Source of the DNA: Flavobacterium branchiophilum NBRC 15030 = ATCC 35035
GTDB lineage: Bacteria; Bacteroidota; Bacteroidia; Flavobacteriales; Flavobacteriaceae
Assembly (NCBI RefSeq): GCF_002217205.1
Contig: NZ_MUGT01000047.1
Location: forward strand, 1 to 64,000
Direction of reading: 5' to 3'
DNA length: 64,000 bases
Made by a program: the position numbers and the translations under genes. Shown here in pieces: positions 2,558-38,532 of this stretch (within the stretch, counting starts at the first letter, position 1; every line of letters starts with the position of its first letter). Under the pieces are notes generated by a model. It was not told where the DNA came from. It saw only the letters and a list, made by a program, of their open reading frames with translations, and searched no databases.

Positions 2558-3607
2558 TTATTTACTAATAATAGACAAATAGCGTTCCATACATTCTTTT
2601 TCAACTTGAGCAACAAACATAATAAAATCTTCTTTGTTGTGGTTAGTTTGAGCGGTTTCTAATGTTTGATAATATTTCATTCGTGTATCATAATCTCCTT
2701 TTATATTTGCAATTACATAACCGTGTTGCAATAAGATAAAATTCATTATCAACCGAGAAGTTCTACCATTACCATCAATAAAAGGGTGAATGGTTACCAA
2801 TCTTTCGTGCATTTCTGCAGCTAAAACAACAGGATGCAATTTGTTTTTTTGTTGTTCCATCCAAATAAAATAATCTTCCATTTGCTTGGCAACAAGATAC
2901 GGTTGTGGTGGCAAATGGCTGCTCCCCTTAATCATGACTTGAACATTTCTATACCGACCCGCATCTTCTGGCATAATACCTCTCAAGATTAAATTGTGAA
3001 CCGATAACAGCTCTCGTTCATTTATATAAAAATTTCTTTCCACCAATTGCTTTATATACGCTATTGCCTCCACATGATTGATGGCTTCTAAATGTTCACG
3101 CATACTTTTACCCGAAACCGTAAGTCCTTCATTAATAACTAAATCGGTCTCGCGCAGCGTTAAAGTATTGCCTTCAATACGATTACTTTCAAAAATGTAT
3201 TCTAATTCTAGTGCCTGAGAAATTCTATAACTGTCAAATTCTCGATATTTGTTTAGTTTTTCTTTTAACACATCAATTTCATCCAAAATAGCTTGAAGAT
3301 TGTTTGAAATTGTTATTTTTTGTACAGAATAGTAGTTTTCAATTTCTTCACGAACCAAATCCATTGCACGGATTGTTAAATCATCGGAACCTATTTCGTA
3401 TAAAATTTTTTCTTTTAGCCAAGCAACCATTAAAGTATCATAATCTAATTCTAGCAATTGAGCAAGTTTGAATACTTGTTCGCGGGTTGGCTTTCTTGTA
3501 CCGTTTTCAAACTTGCTAATAAGTGCTTGGTCAATTTGCATTAATTGAGCTAACTCTCTGGTTTTGATGCCTTTTTGTTCTCTAGCGGTTTTTAGTAATA
3601 TTTTCAT
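2558..3607 (-). CDS. Fic-domain protein with N-terminal XRE helix-turn-helix
   Basis: This 349-residue Fic protein probably transfers AMP (or a related moiety) from a nucleotide to a target side chain. An XRE-type helix-turn-helix occupies about 1-60, a linker follows, then the inhibitory motif SNRIEGN (141-147) and the complete Fic active site HPFIDGNGRTSR (274-285). The inhibitory helix lies N-terminal within the same chain (class II), so activity should be self-restrained. The DNA-binding domain suggests it regulates itself or other genes. It ends 21 nt from a shared terminator and its promoter would lie in 3608-3678. Confidence 0.9.
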   Translation of the reverse strand: MKILLKTAREQKGIKTRELAQLMQIDQALISKFENGTRKPTREQVFKLAQLLELDYDTLMVAWLKEKILYEIGSDDLTIRAMDLVREEIENYYSVQKITISNNLQAILDEIDVLKEKLNKYREFDSYRISQALELEYIFESNRIEGNTLTLRETDLVINEGLTVSGKSMREHLEAINHVEAIAYIKQLVERNFYINERELLSVHNLILRGIMPEDAGRYRNVQVMIKGSSHLPPQPYLVAKQMEDYFIWMEQQKNKLHPVVLAAEMHERLVTIHPFIDGNGRTSRLIMNFILLQHGYVIANIKGDYDTRMKYYQTLETAQTNHNKEDFIMFVAQVEKECMERYLSIISK

Positions 3608-4496: not shown

Positions 4497-5639
4497 TTAT
4501 TTGATATTATTTTCGTCTAATTTTTTATTAGATTCTTTGTGAATTTCAATTTCAAAAATTAATTTAAATTCCTCTTTGAATTTTAAAACTAAAGTATCCC
4601 CTTTACCCCTTACTTGTCCAACAAAATTAATATAACCTTCTAAGCGGTTCATGAATTGTGATGAGTATCTTTTGTCAATTTTGTTAAGTTTAAAATGGCG
4701 TTGGGCTGCTTTTTCTATGCCGTTTATAGAAACGTCATGAAGCATGGCTCGTATTTTTTTTAGTAGTTTTTTGTCCACGTTTACCTTTTGGTTCACTGTT
4801 AATCCTGTAACGATTTGCTTTCTATTTTGTGTTTTTAAATGAATTTTTTTTGAGTTTATTTCAAAGAAATTCTTTTTAATCAAGTTTATGATGTCAAGAG
4901 TGATGTCATGTGAAATTTTAAAGTTAGACGAAAAGGTTAAATCGTCTGCATAGCGGGTAAAAGTTAAATCATTTTCGGCACTAAAACGAAGCAAATCATC
5001 ATCAAGTTCGTGGCAAATAAAATTGGATAGTACTGGTGATGTAGGTGCACCGATTGGTAGTTTGCCTTTGTAGGTAGTAAGCAAGGTTAATGCTATTGCA
5101 ATGGGTTCACTGAAGTTAAAGAAGTGTGAAGAGAAAATGTCTTTTACCTGGTTTGCAGTTATGCTATGGAAAAAATCTTTAAGATCAATGTTTAAGACAA
5201 AGTTTTTTGAAACATGAACTTTTGCGTTCTCCACAATATTGCAAGAAGTTCCTAGATAATGTGGGTTTATAACAAAGCCATGCACATGATGTGGTTTTAA
5301 CCATAAATAGTAGGCCTGTAAAAAATAATTCAGCCTTTTTTGAATCCCTTTTAGCGAATTTTCGGGTGCAAAAATCTGTCTTGTGCCACCCCTTTTCTTT
5401 TGGATGGTGAAATGCTTGTATGGTGGATTATTAAGTAGTTCTTCTAAATGATAGATTGGTGTTGTAAGGAATTTGGCTAATTCAAATGGCTCTTCGATGG
5501 AAAGAAGACATAGCGCGTTTAATTCATGCTTCTTAAAATCCTGCAAAGCAAGATTAGTAAGATAAAAATCATCAGAAAAATATTTTTTAAATTCTTTTTT
5601 ATGTCTTTGAACGAGTTGCTGAATTTCAGGTACTGTCAT
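4497..5639 (-). CDS. Retron reverse transcriptase (retron 1)
   Basis: This RT of about 380 residues would make msDNA by copying part of its own RNA (5658-5824). Visible motifs, numbered from the chosen start, are the retron-type NAKVH (138-142), the first catalytic Asp in DLKDFF (152-157), PIGAPTSP (195-202), YADD (230-233) and VTG (277-279) followed by LTVNQKVNV. NAxxH and VTG separate retron RTs from group II intron and DGR enzymes. A longer reading from 5804 adds 55 residues that are really the msr-msd RNA, so I start at ATG 5639, 18 nt after a2. Its only same-strand neighbours are upstream: the DnaB-like and SSB-like genes. It resembles the RT at 16188-17492 but is clearly divergent. Confidence 0.93.
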   Translation of the reverse strand: MTVPEIQQLVQRHKKEFKKYFSDDFYLTNLALQDFKKHELNALCLLSIEEPFELAKFLTTPIYHLEELLNNPPYKHFTIQKKRGGTRQIFAPENSLKGIQKRLNYFLQAYYLWLKPHHVHGFVINPHYLGTSCNIVENAKVHVSKNFVLNIDLKDFFHSITANQVKDIFSSHFFNFSEPIAIALTLLTTYKGKLPIGAPTSPVLSNFICHELDDDLLRFSAENDLTFTRYADDLTFSSNFKISHDITLDIINLIKKNFFEINSKKIHLKTQNRKQIVTGLTVNQKVNVDKKLLKKIRAMLHDVSINGIEKAAQRHFKLNKIDKRYSSQFMNRLEGYINFVGQVRGKGDTLVLKFKEEFKLIFEIEIHKESNKKLDENNIK

Positions 5640-5657
5640 CCTATTTTTATTTAAAAA

Positions 5658-5824
5658 GAGCCGTTGTAAATTATCTTTGGTTTTCTTGCTATTTATGAGA
5701 AGCGGAACGCAGTGAGCATCGCAATAAATAGCAATATTTTCTTGCTTACAGCTCGATTTGGGTTGCAGGAACACAACCGCAATGTTGTAAATGTTTGACA
5801 TCATAATTTTTAAAACAACGGCTC
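5658..5824 (-). ncRNA. Retron 1 msr-msd RNA (candidate)
   Basis: A perfect 10-bp inverted repeat, GAGCCGTTGT (5658-5667) and ACAACGGCTC (5815-5824), bounds a 167-nt stretch that fits between the dnaB-like stop (5838) and the RT start (5639). These would be a1 (5824-5815) and a2 (5667-5658). Inside is a strong hairpin with an 11-bp perfect stem TTGCTATTTAT/ATAAATAGCAA (5686-5696, 5724-5734) and a 27-nt loop, the likely msd. Near a1 are short stems (ACAAC/GUUGU, GGUUG/CAACC), as in an msr. GC content is visibly higher than in the surroundings. The branching G was not identified. Confidence 0.85.
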
Positions 5825-5837
5825 AATATCTTCATTT

Positions 5838-6935
5838 TTAAAAGGGAGTATTATCTGCATCTAAATTAAAGTCATTAACCAAATTTATTAAATTTGGGTT
5901 TTGGTCATATAACTCTTTTAGTCTTTCTTTTGAAAACGTAAATTCATTTTTGTTTGGGTCAAAAGCTTGAAAACTTGTGAAGTTTTCGTCTCTTAGAAGA
6001 TGTACCGTGCCTAAAACGCCATTTTTGTTTTTTGCAAGGATTAATTCCATCCTTCTATCGGTGCTTTCCCCTTCCTCATCTTCATCAATTTTATAATATT
6101 CGGCTCTGTAAACAAAGAGTACTTTATCGGCATCTTGTTCAATGGCTCCACTATCCCGCAAGTCAGAAAGTTGCGGTCGTTTTGAACCACTCCTTGTTTC
6201 TAAAGCTCTACTTAATTGACTTGATATTATAATACAAACATTAAATGTTTTAGCTATATTTTTTAATTCTCTGCTAATATAGCTTATTTCATACTCGCGA
6301 TTGTGTCGGTATTTGTTGGTACCCATCAACTGTAAATAATCAATAACAATTACTTTTATGTGGTTTTCTTTAATTTGATTTTCACAAAGTGCTTTGAATG
6401 CGGAGATAGAGTGGTAACAACTGTCGTTAAAAAACAGTTGGTGGTTTTTAAAATTACTTTCAAAAGAGGCTACTTTTTGTTTTTCATCATCGCTAAGTTT
6501 GTTTTGCATGATTTTTTCAACGGCTATGCCAGAAACACACGAAAGAAAACGGCTACTTAGTGAAAATTCAGATAAGTCAAAACTAAAATAAAGCAAGTGC
6601 ATTTTTTGGGAAATATGCAAAGATAGATTCACTAATAATTGCGTTTTGCCCATGGCAGGTCGCCCACCTATGACCACGATTTCACCCAGCTCAAACCCTC
6701 CAAAATTAGTATCTAATTGTGTAAAGCCCGTTTTGACGGAGGTGTATTTTTTAGTATTATCTTGAATTTGTTTGATGTTTTCCGAAATTAGCGTTGCCAT
6801 ACTTTTTGAATTTCTGGCTGTATTTTGCTGAAAATCGGCTTCATACAAAACTTGTTTAAGCTTGTAAATAATTTCTGAATCATCCATAGTATGAAGAAGA
6901 ATGTTTTCAATTTTATTTTTAATATTTAAGTTCAT
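5838..6935 (-). CDS. DnaB-type helicase core, retron-associated
   Basis: This 365-residue RecA-fold ATPase matches the C-terminal half of replicative DnaB. It has Walker A GGRPAMGKT (90-98), YFSFDLS (117-123, usually FSLEMS), Walker B VIVIDYLQLM (196-205), and the conserved SSQLSRALETR and KRPQLSDLRDSGAIEQDAD (about 239-271). DnaB normally has about 450 residues with a helical N-terminal domain; here only some 60 residues precede the core. It ends ADNTPF, similar to an SSB C-terminal tip. It stops 13 nt before the retron 1 RNA, so helicase, RNA and RT are probably one transcript. A chromosomal dnaB replacement is unlikely in this context; a phage-derived or retron-effector role is inferred. 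Confidence 0.88.
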   Translation of the reverse strand: MNLNIKNKIENILLHTMDDSEIIYKLKQVLYEADFQQNTARNSKSMATLISENIKQIQDNTKKYTSVKTGFTQLDTNFGGFELGEIVVIGGRPAMGKTQLLVNLSLHISQKMHLLYFSFDLSEFSLSSRFLSCVSGIAVEKIMQNKLSDDEKQKVASFESNFKNHQLFFNDSCYHSISAFKALCENQIKENHIKVIVIDYLQLMGTNKYRHNREYEISYISRELKNIAKTFNVCIIISSQLSRALETRSGSKRPQLSDLRDSGAIEQDADKVLFVYRAEYYKIDEDEEGESTDRRMELILAKNKNGVLGTVHLLRDENFTSFQAFDPNKNEFTFSKERLKELYDQNPNLINLVNDFNLDADNTPF

Positions 6936-7149: not shown

Positions 7150-7500
7150 TTAAAAAGGTAAAATATCTTCATTATCAGGTTCCACGTCTATTATTGTATC
7201 ACTATCTGAAGTATTTGAATGGTTAGGTGTTGTGCTATTTATAACCTCAACTTTCCAAGCTTTGAGGTCGGTGTACCATTTGCCATTAAATTCCCTGCTT
7301 TCTATATCAAATTCAAGGTTTAGCACATTACCAATTTGTAACTGGTTGTTGTTTATTTTGTCTCCCCAAACAGAAACACATATCTTTTTTGGATATTGAC
7401 CGTCTGTTTCTACAATGATGTCTTGTTTTTTCCACTCCCCATTTTTTCCGATTCCTGTTTGAAGCGGTAATACTTGAACCAATTTTGCTGTTATAGTCAT
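7150..7500 (-). CDS. DUF3127 / SSB-like OB-fold protein
   Basis: This 116-residue protein fits DUF3127, a Bacteroidota family with an OB-type fold (MTITAKLVQVLPLQTG, KKQDIIVETDGQ, GKWYTDLKAWKVE). The basic and aromatic OB-like core (1-85) is followed by an acidic tail ending NEDILPF, which closely resembles the SSB tip that docks partner proteins. It probably binds single-stranded DNA. It lies 214 nt upstream of the DnaB-like helicase on the same strand. With the RT as third gene, this makes a small ssDNA-handling set. The family assignment is from memory of the motif, so moderately sure. Confidence 0.75.
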   Translation of the reverse strand: MTITAKLVQVLPLQTGIGKNGEWKKQDIIVETDGQYPKKICVSVWGDKINNNQLQIGNVLNLEFDIESREFNGKWYTDLKAWKVEVINSTTPNHSNTSDSDTIIDVEPDNEDILPF

Positions 7501-7643: not shown

Positions 7644-8918
7644 TTATATTAAGTTATTGATAAATTTGAATAATTCTTTATCTACATTTTTTGTTAATAT
7701 TTTCTTATTTTTCTTATTTAATATTGCCTTTAATTCGCTATAGCTATATTCTTCGTCTCCAAAAAAAGATTTTAACGCATTTTTATTTGTTTTTGATACG
7801 GCTTCACATGATAAATACCATTCTTTTATTTCTCTTATGGTTTTAGTTTTTGATATTTCTTCTTTATCTTCTGGTTCTATTTTTTGTTTCTTTAAACTTG
7901 TAATTGATAATTCTTTTGAATTATAATAAATATCTTTGAATTTTATAGTACCAAAAAACATTCCTACTAGATATAATGCAATTGTAGTCTCTTTTGGTGT
8001 GTTGTTGTGAAACTTCTTGATTATTTTTTTAATTATTTCATCTCTTAAATTAGAAGTATTTCTAAACAAATATCTGAATTTTTGATAATAGGCTATTATC
8101 AAAATATTATTTATTGAATTATCATTATCAACAAAATTTAGATCTTGATTTAATTTTTTTAATTTTTCGTTTTTACAATACTCAGTTAAAAAATTAGACC
8201 AAATTTTGTCGTCTTTTACACTTTGTAGGTATTTTGAAAAAGCTATTATTTCTTCTATATATTCGAATTTAGCAATGTCCTTATCTTTTATTAAATTACG
8301 GGTTCTAATATCCTCTTCCGTAATGTTAAATCTAGACATTGTAATTCCTCCTACATCATAGAGAAAACCAATATCGCTTATGGGATAAGGTTTAGACCTT
8401 TCATAAAAAACTAAACTATCCATTAATGTATCAAGTTCGGAATTTAAATCATCAGAATATTTAGCCAATGATATAAAAAAATCATTTTGATATGTGTCTA
8501 AAATATTAATTTTTGGAATATCAAATGATGCCAACAACCTGTTTGCTCCATTAATTGATAACTCATTATTTCTTTCATCAAATAATAATTTTGAAAATTT
8601 AGTGTCTATTGGATTAGAAATCTTAAATTCAGGTAATTTTTTTGATAAACTATTCTTTCCTTTTTCTGTCAGCGGTATAATATTTAATACTTCAATAAAT
8701 GATAATTTTAAAAAATGGTTATTTTCATCCAATAAATCATTTGAAATTTCTAAAAAGAAAACATCAAAATCCTCTTCAAAAAAACCTGTTTTTTCAAGTA
8801 ATTCTTTTCCATTTAACGTGTTGTTTAACGTGTCAATTACTAATTCTCTATTAATAAATTTATAACCAAACTTATAAAAATCTGTAAAATCAAAAATATT
8901 TGTTGTTATTAATTTCAT
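7644..8918 (-). CDS. Unknown protein of the Hsp70-helicase module
   Basis: I do not recognise this 424-residue protein. It is soluble-looking, rich in Lys, Asn, Ile and Phe, with no signal peptide or membrane segment. Its C-terminal third (about 330-424) is strongly charged and helical. It starts 12 nt after the SF1 helicase gene, which itself follows the Hsp70 gene by 2 nt, so the three are almost certainly one transcription unit. Composition is even more AT-rich than the housekeeping genes, in line with transfer. By position it is an accessory or effector subunit, but no catalytic motif can be named. Confidence 0.7.
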   Translation of the reverse strand: MKLITTNIFDFTDFYKFGYKFINRELVIDTLNNTLNGKELLEKTGFFEEDFDVFFLEISNDLLDENNHFLKLSFIEVLNIIPLTEKGKNSLSKKLPEFKISNPIDTKFSKLLFDERNNELSINGANRLLASFDIPKINILDTYQNDFFISLAKYSDDLNSELDTLMDSLVFYERSKPYPISDIGFLYDVGGITMSRFNITEEDIRTRNLIKDKDIAKFEYIEEIIAFSKYLQSVKDDKIWSNFLTEYCKNEKLKKLNQDLNFVDNDNSINNILIIAYYQKFRYLFRNTSNLRDEIIKKIIKKFHNNTPKETTIALYLVGMFFGTIKFKDIYYNSKELSITSLKKQKIEPEDKEEISKTKTIREIKEWYLSCEAVSKTNKNALKSFFGDEEYSYSELKAILNKKNKKILTKNVDKELFKFINNLI

Positions 8919-8930
8919 TTCATTACTTTT

Positions 8931-10109
8931 TTAGAATACTATTAACGGTTCGTCGTTGTCATTTTCTATACTTATTGGATTAGACAAACGGTTTATTTCA
9001 TCAGTTGCATTTAATTTATGGAAATTTGTTTCGGGAATTAGATTTAAATAATCGTGTTTTGTTTGTCCAGAGTAAGATAAGAATAATTGCTCTCTACTTC
9101 TTGTGAGGGCTACAAAAAATAAAGTTCTTGCTCGTGTTTCAAAATTACGCCAAATTTCTAATGATGGTGTCAAAAATGGGACAAAAACGGCTTTAAAATC
9201 TAATCCTTTAGCACTATGGTAAGTCATAATTGTCGCTAAAGAATATTTTGAAGCATCTTCAAAAGAACCAGCACCATTGCCTAAATATTGAAATTTTAAA
9301 CCATTCGTTTTTAAGTGGTCATTTATTTTGATATAATTCTCTTTGCAATTTACTTTATAATCATCAGGCATTAGAGGTTTGTTCTCTATGCTCAACAATG
9401 TTTGAATAAAATCAAAAATATAAACATGCTTAGGAATTAAAATTGATGGAGCATATCCAGATTTAGCATACTCTTTTGCGTTTAATAATATATACTTACA
9501 TTCTTCTAAATATGAATTTGCTTTTATTAACCTTGGTGGAAGTTCCACCAAACGACCTAATGCCGCTGAATTAAAACCATCTCTGTCAGTACAAAAAAAC
9601 TGTGCAACTTGCCTTATCCTTCTACTAATTCTGTGTATTATCTCTAAAGAAACGGATTTGCTTGATAAAATAGAAGCTATTTCATCGGTGTTACAAACAT
9701 TATCATAAATAGATTGATTTACATCACCAGCTACAATAATTCTATTCCCATTAGACTTAATTTTTCTTATTGTACTTTCTCTCAAGTCTTGAACCTCATC
9801 TACTAAAACTAAATCCCAAATATCATGCATTCCTATAAATTGATGATAGGTAACAACTTTAATATCTTTATATTCATTAGGAATACCTGCTTTAATCATA
9901 TCAACTAAAGCTAAAGTATATAAGACTATAATAATTTTTGCTTTTGGATTTTTTTCTTTTTCCTTTAACAAACAATGTATTAATAATACTGATTTTCCAC
10001 TCCCAGCATAACCTTTTATCCAAAAATTATCTAATTTATTGTTCTCAACATTTTGTAAAAAAGCGAGTTGCTCTTTATCGAGTTGAGTTTTGGTGATGAA
10101 CCATGCCAT
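8931..10109 (-). CDS. UvrD/Rep-like SF1 helicase
   Basis: This compact 392-residue superfamily 1 helicase is likely to translocate on single-stranded nucleic acid. Motifs in order: Walker A GYAGSGKS (33-40), Walker B LVLVDEVQDL (100-109), motif III AGDVNQSIY, motif IV region HRISRRIRQVA, motif V TYHSAKGLDF and motif VI VALTRSREQLF. UvrD and Rep are near 700 residues; here the 1B and 2B insertions are mostly missing, giving a minimal motor. It sits 2 nt from the Hsp70 gene stop and 12 nt from the next gene. Such small SF1 enzymes are common in defence loci. Confidence 0.88.
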   Translation of the reverse strand: MAWFITKTQLDKEQLAFLQNVENNKLDNFWIKGYAGSGKSVLLIHCLLKEKEKNPKAKIIIVLYTLALVDMIKAGIPNEYKDIKVVTYHQFIGMHDIWDLVLVDEVQDLRESTIRKIKSNGNRIIVAGDVNQSIYDNVCNTDEIASILSSKSVSLEIIHRISRRIRQVAQFFCTDRDGFNSAALGRLVELPPRLIKANSYLEECKYILLNAKEYAKSGYAPSILIPKHVYIFDFIQTLLSIENKPLMPDDYKVNCKENYIKINDHLKTNGLKFQYLGNGAGSFEDASKYSLATIMTYHSAKGLDFKAVFVPFLTPSLEIWRNFETRARTLFFVALTRSREQLFLSYSGQTKHDYLNLIPETNFHKLNATDEINRLSNPISIENDNDEPLIVF

Positions 10110-10111
10110 AA

Positions 10112-12544
10112 TTATTCATTTATTTCGGGTAAGTAAATTTTGTTGTCTGAGGCAAGATTATCCTCGTTATACCATTGAACAGAGTTTTCTTGTTTGATTT
10201 TATCAAAATCTAATTTTACTTTTTCTGAAATTTCAAACTTTCCTAGTAAACTAGCAACCTTTACTAATCTCATATAATTGTTTTTATTCAAAATATTAAT
10301 TTTGTATTCATTATACCATTTGTCAAAAGCGTTTTGTAAAAGCAAATTAGCTTTTTCTTTATCTCTATTTAATAGATACTCACCATAACTCAAAAAAGCA
10401 GCATCTAATTTACGATCAACGGCGATTTCCATTAATTCTTCATATTTTTTAAAATCACCATTATTTTCTTTTATAAGTGCAAGATTGTAAGCGTTTGTAC
10501 CGTTTGGATTTTTCTCAAAAGCAATTTTAGCCCATTTATCAGATTGATTTTTCATATTTGCCTTATCATAGTGAAAGCAAATTGAAGTTTCGTATCTATT
10601 AATTGGGTCTAAAGATTGAACTGTTTCAAAAGTTTCAGCAGCCTTTTGGTGTTTATTAACCTTTACATAATAATTTGCTAATTCTTTTAGGAGATTTACT
10701 GGAGGCCTTCCTCCATTATTTTTTGATGCTTCATTCAGGCTTTTTAATATTTTCTTTTCTGCAATTTGTTCCGTAGTTAATGCTGTATTTGAAAAAGGAT
10801 TCAAAGGTTCAACTTTTATTTCTATATCTTTGATATAGGCACGGAAATGGATCAATTTATCATGTGAAATTTCACAATGTATTTGTATTTCATCTTCTTT
10901 GTTAAATCCTTCGGGTGTCTCAATTGTTATTATTGATAAAATTTTTTCTTTACTACTAACACAAATTGGAATTTCTATTTTAGTTTGTTTGTCTTTTCTT
11001 GGGAATAATCCATTAACGCTTATATCTTTATATGGAATTTCAGTACCATCTTTAACTAAGATTCTGGAGGTATTATTTTCTAAAATAATGAGTATTGGTT
11101 CGCTAATAATAGGCTTTATCATATCAACATTTAATCCATTTTGCAAAAATGAATTAACAGCAGCGCCAGTTGAAACATGAGATTGCAAATCTCTAGGAAT
11201 TTCAATCTCAGATTGTGTAAAATATTTGTATAAAGATGTTTGAATATATGGATTATAGGAGCTTCCACCAATCAATAAAACTAAATCAATATCTTCATTT
11301 TCAATATTTCCTTTTTTTAGTGCTGAATTAATAACTGAATAAATGCTTTTTAATTCAGGAGTGTCATTACTATTTAATTCTGAACTAGTATTTGTAAACT
11401 TATCTATTATATCATTAAATTCATTAAATGAAAGCGAAGGATTTTCAAATAAAAGTCTATATTTTGGTAGTAATATTTGAAATGATTGTTCAAGTACAAT
11501 ATTTTTGTTTGAAGATGCGATTGACGGAAGTTCACGCCCCACTAAATTACTTGCAACAGTTTTACAAATTTTAATTTTTAAATTTTCTGCAATAGGTTGC
11601 AATTTTGGAAGAATAATTTTATTGTATTCGGGTGTTTTTATATCATCAGCTTCTAATCCGTTTTGATTAAGAAGTTGTGGAAAAAGAATTTCCTTTACAA
11701 TTTGCTTATCTATGTCGTCACCTCCAAGTTGTTCAAATTTTGAAATTGCAACATTTTTTGAATATAATTTTCCGTTTTTCCTACCGATTTCCAATATAGA
11801 TATGTCGCATGTACCTGCTCCAAAATCAAAAACTAAAATATGTAATGGACTATCAATCGGTATGTTGTAATTTCCTAAATTATTTGAATTCACTTCTATT
11901 AAATAACTTAAAAATGCTGCATTTGGCTCATCAATGAATAAGCTGTCCTGAAAAGGTATATTTGCAAAATCTAAAGCTTCTTTCAAGTCTTTCCTTTGGT
12001 TTGCTTCAAAAGATGCTGGAATACTAATTGAATAATAAGAAGCAAAAGGTAACTCGTTAGTTTTTATAAAATTGTCAATTTCATTTTTTAAATATTTAAA
12101 AAAAACCTTTGTTGCATCAAGAGGATTTTCTATTGAAGCACTATTATGTTCTTTAGTTAATTCAGATGAAAAATAAACAGGGCCGTTGTCCACTCCTAAT
12201 TTCATTTTAAATGAATACCATAAATTACGTCCATAAGTCAATTTGCTTTTTAGCTGTTTTGCTGTTTTACCAATAAATAATTTATTTTCAAACCAAGCAA
12301 TACAAGATGGAACTATATGATTTTCAGTATAACTGCCATCGTGATTTAGCTGTTTAATGGGCATAACATCTGTTATGATTGGTTGTAAATCTTTACCGAA
12401 AACTGTATAACTAACGACTGTAGTTGATGTACCGAAATCAATACCAATAAAAGTACTATTTCTTAATTTATCTTGAACTATTTCTTGGTTTGAAATAGAT
12501 GGTATTAGATTATGTAGGGTTAATTCATTATTCATTTTCCTCAA
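10112..12544 (-). CDS. Hsp70-like ATPase with C-terminal TPR region
   Basis: The first 450 residues of this 810-residue protein are an actin/Hsp70-type ATPase: phosphate-1 FIGIDFGTSTT (32-42), ISIPASFEANQRKDL, IDEPNAAFLSYL, phosphate-2 LVFDFGAGTCDIS and adenosine LLIGGSSYNPYIQ. A shorter beta-rich region follows in place of the normal substrate-binding domain. Residues from about 620 on look like tetratricopeptide repeats (YVKVNKHQKAAETFETV, KANLLLQNAFDKW). This is not the housekeeping DnaK, which lacks TPRs. It leads a tightly packed three-gene set with the SF1 helicase and an unknown protein, suggesting ATP-driven recognition or assembly. Confidence 0.88.
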   Translation of the reverse strand: MRKMNNELTLHNLIPSISNQEIVQDKLRNSTFIGIDFGTSTTVVSYTVFGKDLQPIITDVMPIKQLNHDGSYTENHIVPSCIAWFENKLFIGKTAKQLKSKLTYGRNLWYSFKMKLGVDNGPVYFSSELTKEHNSASIENPLDATKVFFKYLKNEIDNFIKTNELPFASYYSISIPASFEANQRKDLKEALDFANIPFQDSLFIDEPNAAFLSYLIEVNSNNLGNYNIPIDSPLHILVFDFGAGTCDISILEIGRKNGKLYSKNVAISKFEQLGGDDIDKQIVKEILFPQLLNQNGLEADDIKTPEYNKIILPKLQPIAENLKIKICKTVASNLVGRELPSIASSNKNIVLEQSFQILLPKYRLLFENPSLSFNEFNDIIDKFTNTSSELNSNDTPELKSIYSVINSALKKGNIENEDIDLVLLIGGSSYNPYIQTSLYKYFTQSEIEIPRDLQSHVSTGAAVNSFLQNGLNVDMIKPIISEPILIILENNTSRILVKDGTEIPYKDISVNGLFPRKDKQTKIEIPICVSSKEKILSIITIETPEGFNKEDEIQIHCEISHDKLIHFRAYIKDIEIKVEPLNPFSNTALTTEQIAEKKILKSLNEASKNNGGRPPVNLLKELANYYVKVNKHQKAAETFETVQSLDPINRYETSICFHYDKANMKNQSDKWAKIAFEKNPNGTNAYNLALIKENNGDFKKYEELMEIAVDRKLDAAFLSYGEYLLNRDKEKANLLLQNAFDKWYNEYKINILNKNNYMRLVKVASLLGKFEISEKVKLDFDKIKQENSVQWYNEDNLASDNKIYLPEINE

Positions 12545-12729: not shown

Positions 12730-14391
12730 TTAGTTGATTTTTGTTACAAGCAGTTCAATAAAGTTAAAAAGCTCTATAAAACCATCTTTTGTATAAATCT
12801 TACCATCGGGTGTGACGGGTTTCCCGTCTTTATAGGTTGGTTTTGGGTGGATGAAATAATTTCTTCTAGCAATGACGCTATTCACTGTCAAAAGAATTTC
12901 ATTTGTCTGTTCTATTTCTAATTTTTGTATGGCAATTCCAAGAATTTTATTTGCTTCGGATCTATATTTTTCATCTGTATCATCAAAATCAATTGCATGA
13001 TCTATTTTCCTCCATTTCTTTATCTTTTCACCATCAATGCACCAGTTTTTTTCTTCGTCTTCTTTGGCATATTCTTTATTTATAATTTCAATTATCATAT
13101 AAAGGGTAACATAAGCATAAGCAAATTGTTTTTCTGTTTTGGCGTAATCATGCATTTCAATAGCTTGATTTAACAAAACCAAAATTTCTTCTATAAAATC
13201 TCCATTTTGCTCTGTTTTTTTAATAGTCAAGATAGAAATAAGATTGTCTATTCTTGAATAAATGGTTTTCAAATAGGAACGGTTAAAACTAAATGCCACA
13301 TTTTTTTTGAAGGATTGATAATTGTTTTGTGAGATTTCTTTTGAAAATAAATATTCAGGTGATTCTTTTACATAAAACGCATCGGCGCCAAAATCCAATA
13401 ATGGCTTTATGTTCCAAACTTTATTTGATGCTGTAAATACAATGATTTGATTGCCTTTGTTTTGTTTTTTTATTTTTGAAATAACATCATATCCAGAAAA
13501 TTTCTCTATTGGTAAATTATCATCTTCATCAACTCCATTTAACCTTAAATCAATTAGAAATAAATCAATTTCTTCCTCAAAAATCATTTTTTTTGAGGCT
13601 TCAGATAAATCTTCAAAAGACTTTATTTTTTCATTAATAACCTTAAAATCAGCGTTTTTAAATAATTTTCCTAAAACTAAACCCCATCCTTTTTCGGCTT
13701 CGTCGTCTATCAAAACAATTTTTTTGTCATTGGATTCAATTAAATCGGCTTTTTCTACATTAATATACCCTTTGATGTGTGATTTTTTGTTTAATGTTTC
13801 CAAATCAAATTGAAGCGCTTGTATATATTTGAAATACAGTTTGTGAAACATCTGTTTTAAGTTTTCGTTGCTTTTCAAAACTTCGGTATGTGCTGCTTTA
13901 TCGAGAGAAAACGCACCCCATTCATTTGCAATAGAATGTTTGCCAATGCTTTCGTCGGGTCGAATAGCAATTTTATTTAAAAATGAATTTTTATAGGAAC
14001 TTTCGTTTAAAACTTCCACATGTTGCACATCATGCTTTACTAATTTTAGCTCTGTAAAATAAATACTGCCCGTAGCAATAATTTGATACCAAATATCACT
14101 TAATTTGATGATACTCTCTAAACTTTGAGTTGTGAGAAATACAATGGGTATAAGAGTTTTTTCTTTAAGTTCGGCTAACGACAATCGAATATGAAGAGAA
14201 AGTTTCAAACTTTGAATTAGGTTTTTATTCAGATCGAAAACAATTACGTGAATGTCGTTATTTGCAAAAATACTAGTGATGTAGTTGTGATATTCTGTGT
14301 CGTTTTCATGCAAAATTGGTAAATCTAAGTTTTTAAAACCTAAATAATTTACTTGTTCTTGGCTAAAGCCAACCGTATATATTTTTTCCAT
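12730..14391 (-). CDS. Receiver-domain protein with novel C-terminal domain
   Basis: This 553-residue protein has a complete response-regulator receiver in its middle: IVLIDD (Asp229/230), phospho-acceptor LFLIDLRLNG (Asp281), VFTAS (Thr320) and AFYVKE (Lys342). All residues for phosphotransfer are present. Residues 1-120 look like a second, degenerate receiver (VFDLN, VFLTT). Residues 350-553 are helical, match no output domain I know, and hold charged segments such as IEIINKEYAKEDEEKNW and VIARRNYFIHPKP (the R-x3-6-H could be a HEPN-like site, speculative). It overlaps the preceding gene by 29 bp, so the two are translated together. Probable role: the output part of a phospho-signalling defence module. 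Confidence 0.8.
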   Translation of the reverse strand: MEKIYTVGFSQEQVNYLGFKNLDLPILHENDTEYHNYITSIFANNDIHVIVFDLNKNLIQSLKLSLHIRLSLAELKEKTLIPIVFLTTQSLESIIKLSDIWYQIIATGSIYFTELKLVKHDVQHVEVLNESSYKNSFLNKIAIRPDESIGKHSIANEWGAFSLDKAAHTEVLKSNENLKQMFHKLYFKYIQALQFDLETLNKKSHIKGYINVEKADLIESNDKKIVLIDDEAEKGWGLVLGKLFKNADFKVINEKIKSFEDLSEASKKMIFEEEIDLFLIDLRLNGVDEDDNLPIEKFSGYDVISKIKKQNKGNQIIVFTASNKVWNIKPLLDFGADAFYVKESPEYLFSKEISQNNYQSFKKNVAFSFNRSYLKTIYSRIDNLISILTIKKTEQNGDFIEEILVLLNQAIEMHDYAKTEKQFAYAYVTLYMIIEIINKEYAKEDEEKNWCIDGEKIKKWRKIDHAIDFDDTDEKYRSEANKILGIAIQKLEIEQTNEILLTVNSVIARRNYFIHPKPTYKDGKPVTPDGKIYTKDGFIELFNFIELLVTKIN

Positions 14392-15061
14392 ATTTTGTAA
14401 AGCTGTTATTTATAGTGTTTAAATTGTCAATAAATTTCAAAACCGTAATCGGATTGTCTTCTAATTCCTCCAGCAATTCATCAAAGCTAATTGAAATAGA
14501 AGCCATTTCTATAATTTCCTTAAAGGCAGTAAGATTAATGTCTCTTAATTTCAAAATCTCATTTTGGTCTTTGAATTGTAGCATTTCAATTAATAGATTT
14601 GATTTTCTTACTATTTTAATGGATTTATAATGCTTTCCATTCAATAGTATTTCAAATTCAAATTCTTTATTTTCTCTGTAATGAATCAAAAAATCATATA
14701 AATTAGAATAAAACAATGATTTTTTTAAATCAATTCGTTTGTTGCTAATTGGTTCTAAATTTGGTTTGGTGTTTCCTTCACTAAAGGTTACCAAAGGTAT
14801 TTTATCGCCGTTTTCACAAATAGTTTCCATAATTTTTATTACGTTACTTTTGGATCCATCAATAAATTCACCATTAAGCACATCAGCAGTTGTTGCATGA
14901 ATTAATATACAACTTGCTTCATTTAAAAAACTTAAATCTTGGTTTTTTTCTAGCTTATCAATATATATCAGAATATCTGAAAACGTATTGTTTTTGATAT
15001 AATGTATTCCATAATTATTTACGTGTTGGTTGTGTCTGTTATCGTCAATTAAATAAATCAT
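14363..15061 (-). CDS. Degenerate receiver-like protein
   Basis: This 232-residue protein starts MIYLIDDNRHNQ, like a receiver domain with its acidic pair at Asp6/7. The expected phospho-acceptor strand reads CILIHATT with His55 in place of Asp, and PLVTFSEG takes the position of the conserved Thr/Ser strand. The C-terminal half (about 130-232) is helical and acidic. It therefore looks like a receiver that cannot be phosphorylated normally, possibly a decoy or scaffold. It lies 1 nt after the 15063-16163 gene and overlaps the full receiver gene by 29 bp. The assignment is by pattern only. Confidence 0.6.
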   Translation of the reverse strand: MIYLIDDNRHNQHVNNYGIHYIKNNTFSDILIYIDKLEKNQDLSFLNEASCILIHATTADVLNGEFIDGSKSNVIKIMETICENGDKIPLVTFSEGNTKPNLEPISNKRIDLKKSLFYSNLYDFLIHYRENKEFEFEILLNGKHYKSIKIVRKSNLLIEMLQFKDQNEILKLRDINLTAFKEIIEMASISISFDELLEELEDNPITVLKFIDNLNTINNSFTKYGKNIYGWL

Positions 15062-15062
15062 T

Positions 15063-16163
15063 TTAATCTGAAGTTTTATAATAAAAAGTTAAAGTATGTA
15101 TCGTTCCAATACTATTTTCGGTTGCTAGTTTTTCAAATTCGGGTTCATCATTCCCACTTAAAAGATTAATTTTAAAGCAACCATTCTCAAATTTAGTCTC
15201 TATCGACCAATCGCAATATCCAAAAAGTTTTTTTCTTATGCTCCCAATTGTGCCTTTTTCAGTTTTCCATTCTGGAAGTAATTGGTTAAAATCTTTAGAA
15301 GGAAAGGAATTATAGTGGGTTATAATTAGATTTATTTCATAATAGTTACCTACTAATTTCCCTTTAAAAGTCATGTCAAATTTATTAATAGGCAGTATTT
15401 TTCCTTTATCTCGAATGATTTCAAAAATACTCTTTAAGGCTAATTTGAATTCTTTTGTGTTGGTATAAAAATCAGCATTCTCTAATCTTTTCAATGTGTA
15501 TTCAATTTTTGAATCTAAAAATACGTTTTCAATAATTTCTTCCACATCCATTTTCAAATCAGGAGATTGTATTCTTGTTAAGTTTCTAAATTCATCAATC
15601 ACTTTAATGAATTCAGGATTTCTAAATGGTGATAATTTATATTCTTTTGACCAATTTTTCCATTTATTACATGAAAACCCTTCGTTCATACCGTTTCCCC
15701 AATTTGGATTTTCATTAAATGAAAATTCATTTACAATGCTATACAAATAAGATGGTATTTTTAGTTTTTTAGTTTCTCTCTCAAAAACTTTCTTTGTGTT
15801 TTCTAAAAATAGTTCTATATCGAAATCCTTTTGTTGGTCAAAATCATGTGTAAGATATTTTAGTCCATTTGGATTGTTAAATAAATACATGAAATTGGCA
15901 ACATCTTTTGGTTTGTGTTTTTTCACAACTATTTTTTTTTCAACTTTCTTCGCTCCCCCCAATACTTCACCCAAACCGCTCTTCTTCTCCAACCCCTCCA
16001 CTTTTTCATTGATGTTTTTCAACTGCTTGTCTAAGGTTTTTATTAATTCCGAATCGGTTTTCATAAAGTTGCTTGAAAGCTGAAAAACCCGCTCTTTTTG
16101 GGCGATTGTTAATTTTTTATCGGCTAATAAATGATGGACTAAATCAAATGAATCTTGTATCAT
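15063..16163 (-). CDS. Coiled-coil protein with possible degenerate GHKL ATPase fold
   Basis: I do not firmly recognise this 366-residue protein. The N-terminus (1-70) contains a coiled coil (TDSELIKTLDKQLKNINEKV) followed by a lysine-rich linker. The last 110 residues follow the order of a histidine-kinase ATPase domain: strands around GNYYEINLIITH, then KGTIGSIRKKLFG, a strand pair, and the closing GTIHTLTFYYKT. The canonical N, G1 and G2 boxes are missing. If correct, it would be a sensor or kinase-like partner of the two receiver proteins behind it. It starts 24 nt after the retron 2 RT, so it belongs to the retron 2 transcript. Confidence 0.55.
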   Translation of the reverse strand: MIQDSFDLVHHLLADKKLTIAQKERVFQLSSNFMKTDSELIKTLDKQLKNINEKVEGLEKKSGLGEVLGGAKKVEKKIVVKKHKPKDVANFMYLFNNPNGLKYLTHDFDQQKDFDIELFLENTKKVFERETKKLKIPSYLYSIVNEFSFNENPNWGNGMNEGFSCNKWKNWSKEYKLSPFRNPEFIKVIDEFRNLTRIQSPDLKMDVEEIIENVFLDSKIEYTLKRLENADFYTNTKEFKLALKSIFEIIRDKGKILPINKFDMTFKGKLVGNYYEINLIITHYNSFPSKDFNQLLPEWKTEKGTIGSIRKKLFGYCDWSIETKFENGCFKINLLSGNDEPEFEKLATENSIGTIHTLTFYYKTSD

Positions 16164-16187: not shown

Positions 16188-17492
16188 TCATTTCTCATTG
16201 AAAACAGCATCTAATTCTTCATTAGGGGCTATCTTTTTTGATTTTTTTCCAAAATTATAAAATGAAATCGCTGCCTCAACTCCTTCTTTTTCCCAAACGT
16301 CTAGCAACTGATCAATTTTGTTTACTCTTCCTGATAATTTTTCAAATCTGGTTTTTAACCCTATATAAGTACTGTCCTCTGCACCTTTTACCATCTTTAA
16401 ATATAACAATTTCCCTTCTAAAACATGGGTCATATTGGGTTTTTTTGAAACTAAATGCCCTTTTTCTGCCATATAATTTTGTGTGAAAAAAGTACTTGCT
16501 TTGTCAAATCCATAGGATTCCCAATAATATAACCATTTTCTTAACTGCTTGATATAATCTCTAGAAACATTCAACTTTTCGTTTACCGTTATACCTGTAA
16601 CTTCTTGTTTTACATTTTTTACCTGCAATCGAACTTTACTTTCGTTTATACGAAAATTTTGATCTGTAATTATTCTTCTAACTTCTGTATCAAAAATACT
16701 ATTTTTTTTATATATTTTTTCAAATTTTCCTTTTGCATACTCACAAGCATTGTGGTTGCTACTAAAGGTAATATCGTCTGCATATCTAGAATATTGCAAA
16801 CCAAATCGTTTGGCTACACCTGCTAGTCGAATGTCCATTTTTTCGCAAATAGCATTTGTTAATGTCGGAGATGTTGGTGCACCTTGTGGCAAAACCGATG
16901 TCAAAATAGTATGACTAACACCATCTTTAATTCGTTCTACTTCAAGTTTTGTACAACAAATAGAGGCAATCATGTTGGCTATTTTAATACCTTTGGGACT
17001 GTTTTTTAAATTAAACGGAGCTATTAAAAGTCTTCCCCAAACTCTTGATTTATCAATACTCGGAAAAAAATCTTTCAAATCAAGATTGTAAACATATTTT
17101 TGGTTGACATGTTTCTTGGCATTATCTACAATTGATTTGCCCACCACAAATCCAGTTGCATTGGGATGAGGTAGATATACACATTGAAAAATATAATTCA
17201 AGGCTTCTTGAACTTCTTTTAATTTTGGATGTGGTGCATGTATAGTCCTAATACCCCCAGATTTCTTTTTTATTTCAAATTGATGATAAAAAACAGAAGT
17301 TGAGTTTTCTAAATTGAACTCTTTCGCATCTTTTAAAATGAGGTGTTGTAATAATTTAGGTTTAAAGTTTGAGGCTTTTGATCCATGAATATGTTTTTTG
17401 GCTACATTGATTAAATGCCATAAATCAGCTTCTTTTTTCATATTCTGAAATAATTCTTTAATCTCAGTTTGTTGATCTACATTTGTTTTCAT
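16188..17492 (-). CDS. Retron reverse transcriptase (retron 2)
   Basis: This 434-residue RT carries NAKKH (124-128), catalytic DLKDFF (138-143), PQGAPTSP (202-209), YADD (237-240) and VTG (298-300), the last followed by ITVNEKLNV. The NAxxH/VTG pair is the hallmark of retron RTs. About 65 residues at the C-terminus (LYLKMVKGAEDSTYIGLKT onward) extend past the thumb. The gene begins 29 nt after the a2 repeat of the msr-msd RNA at 17522-17773. The next gene follows at 24 nt, so RNA, RT and the signalling genes form one operon. It differs from retron 1 RT in many positions, so this is not a recent duplication. Confidence 0.94.
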   Translation of the reverse strand: MKTNVDQQTEIKELFQNMKKEADLWHLINVAKKHIHGSKASNFKPKLLQHLILKDAKEFNLENSTSVFYHQFEIKKKSGGIRTIHAPHPKLKEVQEALNYIFQCVYLPHPNATGFVVGKSIVDNAKKHVNQKYVYNLDLKDFFPSIDKSRVWGRLLIAPFNLKNSPKGIKIANMIASICCTKLEVERIKDGVSHTILTSVLPQGAPTSPTLTNAICEKMDIRLAGVAKRFGLQYSRYADDITFSSNHNACEYAKGKFEKIYKKNSIFDTEVRRIITDQNFRINESKVRLQVKNVKQEVTGITVNEKLNVSRDYIKQLRKWLYYWESYGFDKASTFFTQNYMAEKGHLVSKKPNMTHVLEGKLLYLKMVKGAEDSTYIGLKTRFEKLSGRVNKIDQLLDVWEKEGVEAAISFYNFGKKSKKIAPNEELDAVFNEK

Positions 17493-17521
17493 GGTAACTT
17501 ACATTGTTTTATATGTTTTGA

Positions 17522-17773
17522 AAAACCGTAGTGTATATTCTTTTTCTTCATCAACAAATTTTTCATCAATAAATACTAGAAGTTAGGGTCTTGATTAGTA
17601 TCCAACATAAAATAATAAATATATTATAATTAGTTGATTACTAAACATTCCATTATAACTTGCGTTATAGAACTTGCCGATTTGATATTTTGTTTACAAC
17701 ATATTGGAAACAAAAAATCCAGCAAGCAAGCCCGTTATAAAAACGAGCGATTCAATATTTTAACTACGGTTTT
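17522..17773 (-). ncRNA. Retron 2 msr-msd RNA (candidate)
   Basis: A perfect 11-bp inverted repeat, AAAACCGTAGT (17522-17532) and ACTACGGTTTT (17763-17773), bounds 252 nt ending 29 nt before the RT start; read on the minus strand these are a2 and a1. Near a1 is a hairpin CUCGUU/AACGGG (17747-17731). A TATAAC-GCAA-GTTATA stem with a GNRA loop follows (17669-17654). A 50-nt hairpin (17644-17595) has a 12-position stem TTAGTAATCAAC/GTTGGATACTAA with one mismatch and one wobble, enclosing an AT-rich inner stem; this is the likely msd. A -7 box lies about 23 nt upstream of a1. The branching G was not assigned. Confidence 0.83.
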
Positions 17774-17795
17774 CAAAGAACTTATTTTGATGCTG

Positions 17796-17803
17796 CAAAT
17801 TTA
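17796..17803 (-). promoter_or_regulatory. -7 box of the retron 2 operon
   Basis: TAAATTTG on the minus strand (within TATAAATTTGC) matches TAnnTTTG. Transcription would start near 17790, about 17 nt before a1, the spacing expected for a retron RNA. The -33 element is not clear. Confidence 0.55.
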
Positions 17804-17819
17804 TATTCCATCTCTGCAT

Positions 17820-17837
17820 TTTTGCTGCATAGCAAAA
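17820..17837. promoter_or_regulatory. Probable WYL-regulator operator
   Basis: The perfect inverted repeat TTTTGCT-GCAT-AGCAAAA lies between the divergent retron 2 and WYL promoters. It overlaps the -33 element of the WYL gene and sits just upstream of the retron -7 box. A second TGCTGCA half lies at 17791. Repressors of the WYL type that guard defence loci bind such inverted repeats (family knowledge); binding here is inferred. Confidence 0.55.
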
Positions 17838-17888: not shown

Positions 17889-18908
17889 ATGGCAATTACA
17901 AAAAATCCTTTTATAAGATATAAAATTTTAGACTCTTTTTTTCGTCATCCGTTTAAGATTTATACTATTGATGTTTTACTTCAAGAGTTAAACGATAAAT
18001 TATTTGAAATTTTTGACAATCACAAGAACGCCATAAAGTTAAGACAACTACAAGAAGATATTGCCTTTATGAAATCTACTGAAGGTTGGGGTATAGAATT
18101 TGCAGATTTAAGTGATGGTAAAAAAAAAAATTACCGCTACGAAAACATTAATTTTTCTATCAACAACTTAGCTTTAAATGATATAGAAACCAACGAATTT
18201 CAAGCTGCATTATTAACTTTAAGCCATTTTGAGGGAATGCCTCAATTTGAAGGGATTTCTGAAATTATTGCAAAACTAGATATGAAATTTAAAAATAATA
18301 TTATAGAAAAACCATTTATTGGGTTTGAACAAAATGCAGATTTGAAGGGTATAGACAATTTTGGTATGTTGTTTCAGGCAGTGAAAGATAAACTAACATT
18401 AGAAATTGAATATAAAGATTTTTCGTTTCCAGAGTCTTATAAATTTGAATTCCACCCATATTATTTAAAACAATATAACAACAGATGGTTTATTTTGGGT
18501 TTAAATCCTTCCAAAAATAAGTATGATTGGAATATTGCGTTGGATAGAATTGTAAGTTACAAATGTATTGATAAGGGTTTTATAGAAAATGAAAAAATTG
18601 ATTTTAAGGAATATTTTTCAGACATGATTGGTGTTTCTAAACCCGAAAATTCAATTATTGAAACTGTAATCCTGCATTTTGAACCCTTAACGGCTAAATA
18701 TATGATGAATAAGCCAATTCATGAAACTCAAAAAAATAAATGGATTGATGAAAATACTTTAGAAATTAAGCTAAATATAATAATTAATTACGAATTAGTA
18801 AGGTTTATTTTGAGTTATGCCGATAGTGTAAAAGTAATTGCACCGCTTCATTTGGTGGATTTAATTATAAATAAAATAAATGGTGCCCAAAATTTATACA
18901 AATTATAA
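17889..18908 (+). CDS. WYL-domain transcriptional regulator
   Basis: This 339-residue protein has an N-terminal winged-helix-like region (KNPFIRYKILDSFFRH, TIDVLLQELN, about 1-85), a middle linker domain and a C-terminal WYL domain (from about 165: LTLEIEYKDF, FHPYYLKQYNNRWFILG, WNIALDRIVSY). WYL regulators control phage-defence loci and may sense nucleic acid ligands. The gene is divergent from the retron 2 operon and shares its promoter region, so it probably represses the island and itself. A longer frame from 17634 would cross the retron RNA and the promoter; I start at MAITKNPF. Confidence 0.88.
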   Translation: MAITKNPFIRYKILDSFFRHPFKIYTIDVLLQELNDKLFEIFDNHKNAIKLRQLQEDIAFMKSTEGWGIEFADLSDGKKKNYRYENINFSINNLALNDIETNEFQAALLTLSHFEGMPQFEGISEIIAKLDMKFKNNIIEKPFIGFEQNADLKGIDNFGMLFQAVKDKLTLEIEYKDFSFPESYKFEFHPYYLKQYNNRWFILGLNPSKNKYDWNIALDRIVSYKCIDKGFIENEKIDFKEYFSDMIGVSKPENSIIETVILHFEPLTAKYMMNKPIHETQKNKWIDENTLEIKLNIIINYELVRFILSYADSVKVIAPLHLVDLIINKINGAQNLYKL

Positions 18909-27727: not shown

Positions 27728-27810
27728 TGCCCTAGCCCAGATAGTAGTGGAAATCCTTTTGTGCCAGGGTTTGGCACAAAAGATTGCAACGGATAGCTGG
27801 AAATGGCTCC
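27728..27810. repeat. Hairpin repeat between ddl and PASTA gene
   Basis: CTTTTGTGCC (27756-27765) and GGCACAAAAG (27773-27782) form a 10-bp stem with a 7-nt loop. Flanks read TAGCCCAGATAGTAGTGG and GATAGCTGGAAATGGCTCC. The shape (conserved flanks around a variable stem) is like the larger repeats elsewhere in this window, and I recall similar sequences being frequent between genes in Flavobacterium. Confidence 0.65.
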
Positions 27811-38505: not shown

Positions 38506-38532
38506 AAAATAAGGTACAACTATAGCAAGATT

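Follow-up and report, generated by a model that had tools for sequence, protein, structure and literature searches.

Retrons in the papers compared here hold their toxic partner inside a complex of reverse transcriptase (RT) and msDNA. Their standard classification is said to be that of Mestre et al. from 2020, and HisKin-conflict/iREC systems were reportedly described by Burroughs and Aravind in the same year. In the type IX system retron-Kva2, as presented in excerpts of the original report, a HEPN dimer resides in the RT-msDNA particle and becomes active upon the binding of a phage protein to the msDNA (PMC13405049). Regulators with WYL domains are described beside other types of defence system: the portions available of two reports present BrxR as a WYL regulator that lies beside a defence operon and binds inverted repeats (PMC9122601) and CapW as the WYL regulator of a defence system (PMC9122588). 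HATPase and REC domains appear among predicted defence systems in a figure legend that draws no link to retrons (PMC13092281). Among the matches listed from the open-licence PMC literature, none joins a retron to a kinase/receiver effector, and nothing relevant to a retron with a boxA was found in that literature.

A retron locus in Flavobacterium branchiophilum

The locus considered here lies in Flavobacterium branchiophilum NBRC 15030 = ATCC 35035 (GCF_002217205.1), in a stretch of 64,000 nt (positions 1-64,000 of NZ_MUGT01000047.1) that is referred to below, as a whole, as the window. The retron RNA, the RT gene, and the effector genes are all encoded on the minus strand. Comparison with related loci shows an RNA closed by complementary a1 and a2 arms, with msr hairpins and an invariant UUGA, beside a retron-family RT. 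We hold with moderate confidence that this element is the msr-msd RNA of a retron whose effector would be a HEPN ribonuclease (RNase), gated in the window by HisKin and REC domains. The a1/a2 arms, RT motifs, and promoter-like box proposed in an initial annotation of this DNA were all located as claimed, to within 2 nt.

The reverse transcriptase and its relatives

The RT (434 aa; 16188..17492, minus strand) is assigned to the retron family by profiles, PDB relatives, and a phylogenetic tree. Its NAKKH (aa 124-128), YADD (237-240), and VTG (298-300) motifs are those of the initial annotation, and an alignment of 16 RTs shows no variation at N124, A125, H128, YADD, T299, or G300. The first 14 sequences retrieved in a PDB search are retron RTs (best E 8.9e-60), with the Ec67 and Ec86 enzymes leading, and group II RTs appear at 2.9e-14 or weaker; classification as a DRT or group II RT was rejected because the scores are far lower. 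Among PADLOC profiles, RT-Protease_XI scores highest (348 bits), followed by RT-TIR_XII (314) and RT-Toprim_I-C (287), and RT_IX, at 140 bits, is 25th among the profile matches listed. NCBIfam retron models match the RT below their cut-offs. A Pfam scan of the RT returns RVT_1 only, with no fused effector. Types XI, XII, and I-C were rejected because the protein is without a fused protease, TIR, or Toprim domain and the profiles match in the RT part only, and type IX was rejected for the RT on its low profile score.

Relatives of the RT were sought at E <= 1e-60 or 1e-70 in overlapping draws of genomes, with matches in 5 of 299 genomes of the genus (its own included), 5 of 397 of the family, 5 of 395 of the order, 8 of 395 of the class, and 3 of 395 of the phylum. 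The RT was thereby found in 20 different genomes besides its own, roughly 1 in 100. Genome contigs contributed six further loci and plasmids two close Chryseobacterium records among 291; viral contigs held 57 RT loci, of which L057 is close and L058 partly so, and phage records gave distant matches only. The comparison set consists of the 27 loci with a readable upstream region, 26 from Bacteroidota (the window included) and one from a viral contig (L057). It leaves out L044, in which the upstream region ends at the contig edge, and L058, in which the RT frame is broken (its neighbour gene is still counted among the 15 stand-alone effectors discussed below), together with the duplicates L007 (= L034) and L008, L010, L017, and L021, whose contigs, judged by their length, equal those of L038 and L042. 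In a tree of 35 RTs, 26 of these 27 loci group together with moderate support (91/84), and L045 falls outside; long branches make the placement of L045, of the Ec67-like RTs, and of a second RT in the window unsure. On this tree, L031 is the sister of the window RT (97/94) and L035 is the next to join them (99/97).

Loci L027-L030, from cyanobacteria and Chloroflexi, serve as outgroups for the RNA, with L027 and L028 retained among the 15 stand-alone effectors. On the cyanobacterial plasmids of L027 (7918-9966) and L028 (7826-9889), a protein whose C-terminus resembles WYL comes after the RT and a HEPN-motif gene and carries, in L028, an AAA_33 N-terminal domain; by this arrangement, WYL and HEPN recur around outgroup RTs as well. 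The cyanobacterial retron-family RT of L029 (5989-8247) has an AAA_5 ATPase domain in the same protein.

Architecture and covariation of the retron RNA

The RNA enclosed by the arms is approximately 255 nt long and directly precedes the RT gene. Inverted repetition and cross-locus pairing identify a1 (GAAAACCGTAGT, 17763..17774) and a2 (ACTACGGTTTTTC, 17520..17532), both on the minus strand, which share a perfect 11-bp core; between the end of a2 and the RT start codon at 17492 lie 27 nt, so the initial annotation was right to place a2 just before the RT and slightly off in giving the spacing as 29 nt. From a1 onward on that strand, the RNA contains ATATTGAATC with the invariant UUGA (17749..17758), in which G17753 is the candidate branching guanosine; SL0, an additional msr hairpin (17730..17748) that folds and is carried by the window, L031, and L035; SL1, an msr hairpin with a CTGG/ATCGG motif and a covarying outer helix (17673..17726); SL2, a further msr hairpin recognised from the fold (17654..17669) and followed by GGAATGT; and a probable msd part, also from the fold and putative in extent, with long hairpins and a AAAAAGAATA motif before a2 (17533..17644). 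The order of UUGA, SL1, SL2, and a GAATGT-like motif after a1 is shared among the loci. TTGA after a1 is invariant in alignments of 20 and 15 loci, and an A-rich ACAAAGAATA-like motif precedes a2 in the loci compared. L045 has a shorter RNA, with 156 nt between the arm ends. The minimum free energy of the window RNA is -66.9 kcal/mol (z -6.3), a value that none of 200 shuffles equals, and the fold bears out the internal hairpins that had been noted before, although their number exceeds the three then counted (SL0, SL1, SL2, and the msd hairpins).

An inverted repeat at a single locus is by itself weak evidence, with a chance rate of about 2%: repeats of at least 11 bp in the same geometry arise in 22 of 1000 Markov-simulated sequences and in 22 of 1272 actual 400-nt segments taken from the 64 kb. 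Comparison across the 27 loci, in which the arms are complementary and differ in sequence, raises the repeat above chance. Repeats were found beside the orthologous RTs at all 27: the inverted repeat that scores best within 480 nt ahead of the RT has the a1/a2 arrangement (a1 170-331 nt and the end of a2 6-29 nt before the RT start) in 26, and in the remaining locus, L037, the arms are present, as judged by eye, about 0.6 kb further upstream, with an inserted ORF. This ORF, between the retron RNA and the RT, encodes 187 aa (2610-3173 of the reverse-complemented locus). Arm sequences mostly differ among loci with pairing kept, as in AAGCCTGTTTT/AAAACAGGCTT, TGACAAACTGAAGT/ACTTCAGTTTGTCA, and GAAAACCTAAAC/GTTTAGGTTTTC, and the core sequence of the window is common only to its nearest relative, L031.

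Pairing specificity was assessed in segments delimited, without regard to pairing, by the positions of the boxA-like motif and the RT start, for 18 loci reduced to 12 dissimilar representatives. Pairing of a1 is much stronger with the a2 of the same locus than with those of other loci (mean score 24.3 for own arms and 13.7 for crossed arms), and none of 100,000 permutations reaches the observed sum; the own a2 is the top partner of its row in only 7 of the 12 because related a1 arms cross-pair. The outer helix of SL1, the one msr hairpin for which covariation was counted, also covaries: 17 loci give 12 distinct rows, in which 59 of 60 cells are paired (0 of 20,000 shuffles) and pairing is maintained through up to five pair types. 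This count draws on 17 of 23 segments, leaving out L035 and L054, which have no anchor, and L026, L033, L038, and L042, whose arms equal counted rows. The upstream regions of RT homologues thus yield the covariation for which the initial annotation had recommended a search, and the two covarying elements, together with a retron-family RT, support its reading of the element as a retron.

Pairs were counted on anchored arms because a whole-ncRNA MAFFT alignment misplaces a2 in several rows. RNAalifold retains only 8 SL1 pairs in the model. A covariance model built from 15 other loci has its top match in the 64 kb at 17646-17730 on the minus strand, a weak one (22.7 bits, rough E 0.1). In a 785-kb pool from 51 sources, the same held-out model gives only three matches at E <= 1, which are the left-out relatives, each at its predicted place; the window itself is not recovered from this pool at that limit. 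No Rfam ncRNA family matches at gathering scores, and a lax limit produces only weak, unrelated matches.

Probable promoter region and boxA-like leader

The RNA is preceded on the same strand by three short elements. The most distal is a conserved TGCA-N7-TGCA palindrome (TGCAGCAAAAATGCA, 17815..17829), near the expected -33 region, with a putative operator role. The box TAAATTTG, at 17796..17803, is present as initially described, and its match to what we take to be the Bacteroidota-type -7 consensus makes an RNA start near 17790 plausible. Directly 5' of a1 lies the boxA-like element GTTCTTTGA (17773..17781). Of 19 loci, 12 have a TAnnTTTG box at a distance of 12-40 nt ahead of the boxA-like element, and 19 of the 27 loci have a palindrome of the form TGCA..TGCA or GTGC..GCAC within 95 nt ahead of a1, versus 14 of 1080 random windows from the same loci. 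The gene divergent from the retron (17889..18908, plus strand) encodes a WYL/WCX-domain regulator, as identified by Pfam, and a WYL homolog is present in the retrieved region of 21 of the 27 loci, not always adjacent to the RT. The palindrome is probably the operator of this divergent regulator, an idea that must explain its presence in three loci with no WYL match (L025, L026, and L036).

The boxA-like 9-mer is exact just 5' of a1 in 16 of the 27 loci, lies inside a1 in one, has one mismatch in three, and is absent in seven; within the window, it occurs at two places, 17773 and 43791. As GTTCTTTGACATATTG, the 9-mer is found in 16 of 90 genomes of the class, with no occurrence of a reversed control, and 9 of the 12 loci viewed have it in the 16S-23S spacer. 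The retron element and the one in the rRNA spacers of the phylum are identical in sequence. In E. coli, boxA is expected in this spacer, and it is from that precedent and from its place that we take the spacer 9-mer to be a boxA. GTTCTTTGACATATTG is a possible marker for rRNA boxA in Bacteroidota (loci L122-L133); in L122, its place is instead within a tRNA cluster, after the gene for tRNA-Tyr. A 16S gene was not found in the genome of the window itself and was found in two of five other genomes asked, G123 and G010, both of the same genus. The exact 9-mer is absent from the 16S leaders of these two genomes, which carry after 16S GTTCATTGACATATTG, one letter off the 9-mer of the window and the same as in the retron of L054. 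The probable role of the boxA-like leader is to keep RNA polymerase from terminating early as it transcribes the untranslated RNA. If true, this would account for the escape from termination of a template RNA that is long and untranslated, and it could matter for retron tools in Bacteroidota.

Probable effector genes downstream of the RT

The RT is followed by genes for a HisKin-conflict protein, a protein termed X, and an iREC-REC protein, in that order. The HisKin-conflict protein (366 aa; 15063..16163, minus strand) matches PF22561 with a Pfam E of 9.8e-75 and contains a histidine, His106, that is kept in 16 of 16 aligned homologs; its ATP-binding boxes look divergent by eye, so that a phosphate relay is a proposal only. 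Protein X (232 aa; 14363..15061, minus strand) matches no Pfam family and is REC-like by eye, with a LIDD start and an FS motif. Its His55, invariant in an alignment of 12, belongs to an ILIHxx motif (window 14891-14908) and, if X adopts a receiver fold, may stand at the place of the phospho-acceptor Asp. The third protein (553 aa; 12730..14391, minus strand) was divided into domains from Pfam, alignments, and a predicted structure. Its first receiver, iREC (aa 1-112; PF22563), is called inactive by Pfam; the active site of the REC domain is complete (D229, D230, D281, T320, K342) and kept in aligned homologs; and residues 385-553 form a predicted HEPN domain with the motif RNYFIH (aa 510-515, 12847-12864, minus strand).

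The HEPN motif R[ND]..H recurs in 14 of 14 iREC homologs, in which its R and H are the only invariant columns, separated by four residues in nine proteins, five in three, and six in two. The slot after the RT is occupied in 15 other relatives by a single stand-alone gene of 235-335 aa, and all 15 products contain R[ND]..H, as R-x4-H in 11 and R-x3-H in 4. Pfam assigns no family at its cut-off to the 11 stand-alone effectors scanned (L012, L013, L057, and L058 were left out), and no Pfam HEPN family reached its cut-off, the nearest approach being a weak HEPN_RiboL-PSP match in L045 (E 0.041). Structures predicted for one effector of each kind have mean pLDDT values of 79.5 (iREC kind) and 79.0 (stand-alone), and fold comparison ranks HEPN first for both, at Z scores (8.3 and 9.8, respectively) that lie below the bar the tool sets for helical proteins. 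The first 20 matches of the iREC-kind model (Z 8.3-5.8) include 14 titled HEPN, toxin-antitoxin (MntA, HEPN-MNT), AbiV, or Csm6, the other 6 having uninformative titles, and designed proteins come next at 5.5; for the stand-alone model, rows not named HEPN are close behind, at Z 7.4 and 7.0. Foldseek is not significant for either model (best E 2.4 for the iREC kind and 0.71 for the stand-alone) and hhalign finds no link between the two effector families (probability 0.7%), so that motif, conservation, and fold ranking jointly carry the assignment to HEPN. A PDB sequence search with the two effectors yields one unconvincing match for one of them (E 0.00031, RPB_PLP3_R6, 41 profile positions) and none for the other. 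Taken from these alignments and models, the effector of the clade is probably a HEPN RNase, either bare or gated by HisKin/REC.

Two forms of one effector slot

The two nearest relatives of the window RT, L031 and L035, both carry a single stand-alone HEPN-motif gene in the slot, and the starred branches of the RT tree force at least five changes between the stand-alone and HisKin-module forms. In five relatives, RT and HisKin are one polypeptide, a fusion recognised by Pfam in L011 and L032, by tblastn inside the RT ORF in L045 and L055, and by length and alignment in L056. Where the two are separate, the next gene begins 1-39 nt after the RT. Among plasmids, HisKin and iREC queries matched only the two records that also hold this RT, and among 21 genomes a HisKin-conflict protein was found only in the one to which the window belongs. 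The exchange in one slot along the RT tree and the RT-HisKin fusions argue that HisKin-X-iREC-REC-HEPN is an effector module, with HEPN as the common toxic part. The initial annotation, which stands as regards the retron element, had left that element unconnected with the effector genes, the palindrome near the WYL gene, and the leader that resembles boxA.

Further downstream, L033 has a TOTE-type pair (PADLOC PDC-M16A, M16B) after the retron genes, and L025 and L035 have at least the M16A helicase. Many other relatives appear similar to L033 in this respect, as far as the lengths of their genes and the overlaps between them indicate.

Proposed mechanism and alternatives

By analogy with known retrons, the RT would prime on the 2'-OH of a guanosine, probably G17753, and copy the msd part of the RNA into msDNA, forming an RT-msDNA particle that would guard a toxic effector. 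This effector is most likely a HEPN RNase, which in the simple form of the system would be the product of the one gene after the RT and in the window the C-terminus of the iREC-REC protein, preceded by the HisKin-conflict protein and REC-like X. In the window form, the RT-msDNA particle would bind the HisKin protein, which is joined to the RT in some relatives, and keep it off. A phage product that disturbs the msDNA would release HisKin, which would then signal to the intact REC domain through phosphoryl transfer or its ATP state; the HEPN domain, turned active, would cut RNA and arrest the cell. The divergent WYL regulator, acting at the TGCA-N7-TGCA palindrome, would probably govern transcription. 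In this scheme, we infer the activity of the HEPN domain, the gating by phosphorelay, and the function of the boxA. A wider picture, which we advance tentatively and think somewhat less likely than not to hold as a whole, is of a retron clade in which an RT-msDNA sensor feeds a relay from HisKin through REC to HEPN, the relay is swappable with a bare HEPN RNase, and the template RNA carries an rRNA boxA and is transcribed like ribosomal RNA.

Several other accounts of the locus can be weighed against this one. That the repeat and hairpins arose by chance, or belong to a conventional attenuator that acts on the RT gene without any reverse transcription, appears very improbable: a repeat alone is expected in about 2% of cases and no Rfam family matches, but the RNA covaries across 27 loci and the adjoining RT is of the retron family, and the multi-locus arrangement and a1/a2 permutation test led us to reject a chance repeat. 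It is also improbable, if less so, that an ordinary retron merely adjoins an independent HisKin-X-iREC-REC-HEPN conflict system in a defence island. Pfam names HisKin from conflict contexts generally, and the island has other genes of such a nature (a second RT, an Hsp70 gene, and a helicase); this account is at odds with the joining of RT and HisKin in one protein in five relatives, with the 1-39 nt that separate the RT from the next gene elsewhere, and with the exchange of the stand-alone gene and the HisKin module in one slot on the RT tree.

A stronger competitor, still on the unlikely side, concerns the gating step, in which HisKin and REC would act as nucleotide- or ligand-gated scaffolds with no phosphate relay and HEPN would be freed by disassembly. 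The divergent look of the HisKin ATP boxes and the inactive call for the first receiver (PF22563) agree with such a scheme, as does retron-Kva2, for which the sections consulted describe HEPN activation with partial disassembly (PMC13405049); retention of the REC active-site residues and the HisKin His in aligned homologs, on the other hand, is hard to explain without phosphotransfer. For the leader alone, we regard as possible, though doubtful, that GTTCTTTGA does no more than form the outer end of the a1/a2 stem and is no antitermination signal. Several loci allow TTTGA to pair with sequence that follows a2, the 9-mer lies inside a1 in L013 and is missing in 7 of 27 loci, and the cyanobacterial leaders of L027 and L028 are without it. 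The 9-mer nevertheless stays constant while the adjoining a1 arm varies, and the distribution of GTTCTTTGACATATTG (16 of 90 class genomes against 0 for the reversed control, 9 of 12 in the 16S-23S spacer) speaks for a boxA.

Genomic neighbourhood

The window holds a second retron-family RT (4497-5804, minus strand), for which the best PADLOC profile is RT-Protease_XI (319 bits). It starts 33 nt after a DnaB_C helicase gene (5838-6935), which is itself preceded by a DUF3127 gene (7150-7500), and has no GTTCTTTGA leader, the 9-mer being restricted in the window to 17773 and 43791. On the same strand after the iREC gene (7644-12544, minus) lie an Hsp70 gene (10112-12544), an SF1/UvrD-like helicase gene (8931-10109), and a gene for a 424-aa protein. 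A HipA-like gene (558-1808) and a Fic/HTH gene (2558-3607) near the window start resemble toxin-antitoxin neighbours of an island. The window also contains four Flavo-1 RNAs (Rfam RF01705), at 27730-27807, 36915-37063, 1870-1957, and 38531-38669.

Comparison with known systems

The retron of the window bears some resemblance to retron-Kva2, as far as the excerpts of that report extend, in having a toxic HEPN ribonuclease as its effector, which is a prediction in the present case (PMC13405049). The same excerpts give the operon as HEPN, winged-helix protein, ncRNA, and RT, whereas the order in the window is ncRNA, RT, and effector, and they cite the authors as finding no canonical motif in the HEPN of retron-Kva2, whereas the R-N-x3-H of the window is canonical (PMC13405049). 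The two also differ in the RT, which in the window scores only 140 bits with the RT_IX profile versus 348 with RT-Protease_XI. As for the winged-helix partner of type IX, Pfam recognises none in the RT unit of the window, a result that leaves aside X, which matches no Pfam family. The closest RT profiles are those of PADLOC types XI (RT-protease), XII (RT-TIR), and I-C (RT-Toprim), at 348, 314, and 287 bits, and the type XI score lies below that of the cyanobacterial RTs of L027 and L028 (about 460 bits).

With respect to regulation, the window resembles the defence loci of BrxR and CapW, as portrayed in the parts of those reports at hand, in its use of a WYL protein and is distinguished by a WYL gene that adjoins the promoter of a retron ncRNA and by a short TGCA-N7-TGCA palindrome. 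HisKin-conflict/iREC systems (PF22561, PF22563) have two domains in common with the window. Unlike these domains as named in Pfam, the module described here is tied to a retron RT and its ncRNA and ends in a predicted HEPN RNase; part of the association between HisKin and retrons may already be in print. HEPN effectors are already known in type IX retrons, which have a different RT and operon; their combination with a two-component-style module was not found in the open-licence literature searched. An alarm that passes through a kinase-receiver module would, if true, represent a new way for a sensor built on msDNA to control a killer enzyme. Because bare and gated HEPN forms exchange naturally on one RT tree, they offer paired systems in which this coupling can be tested.
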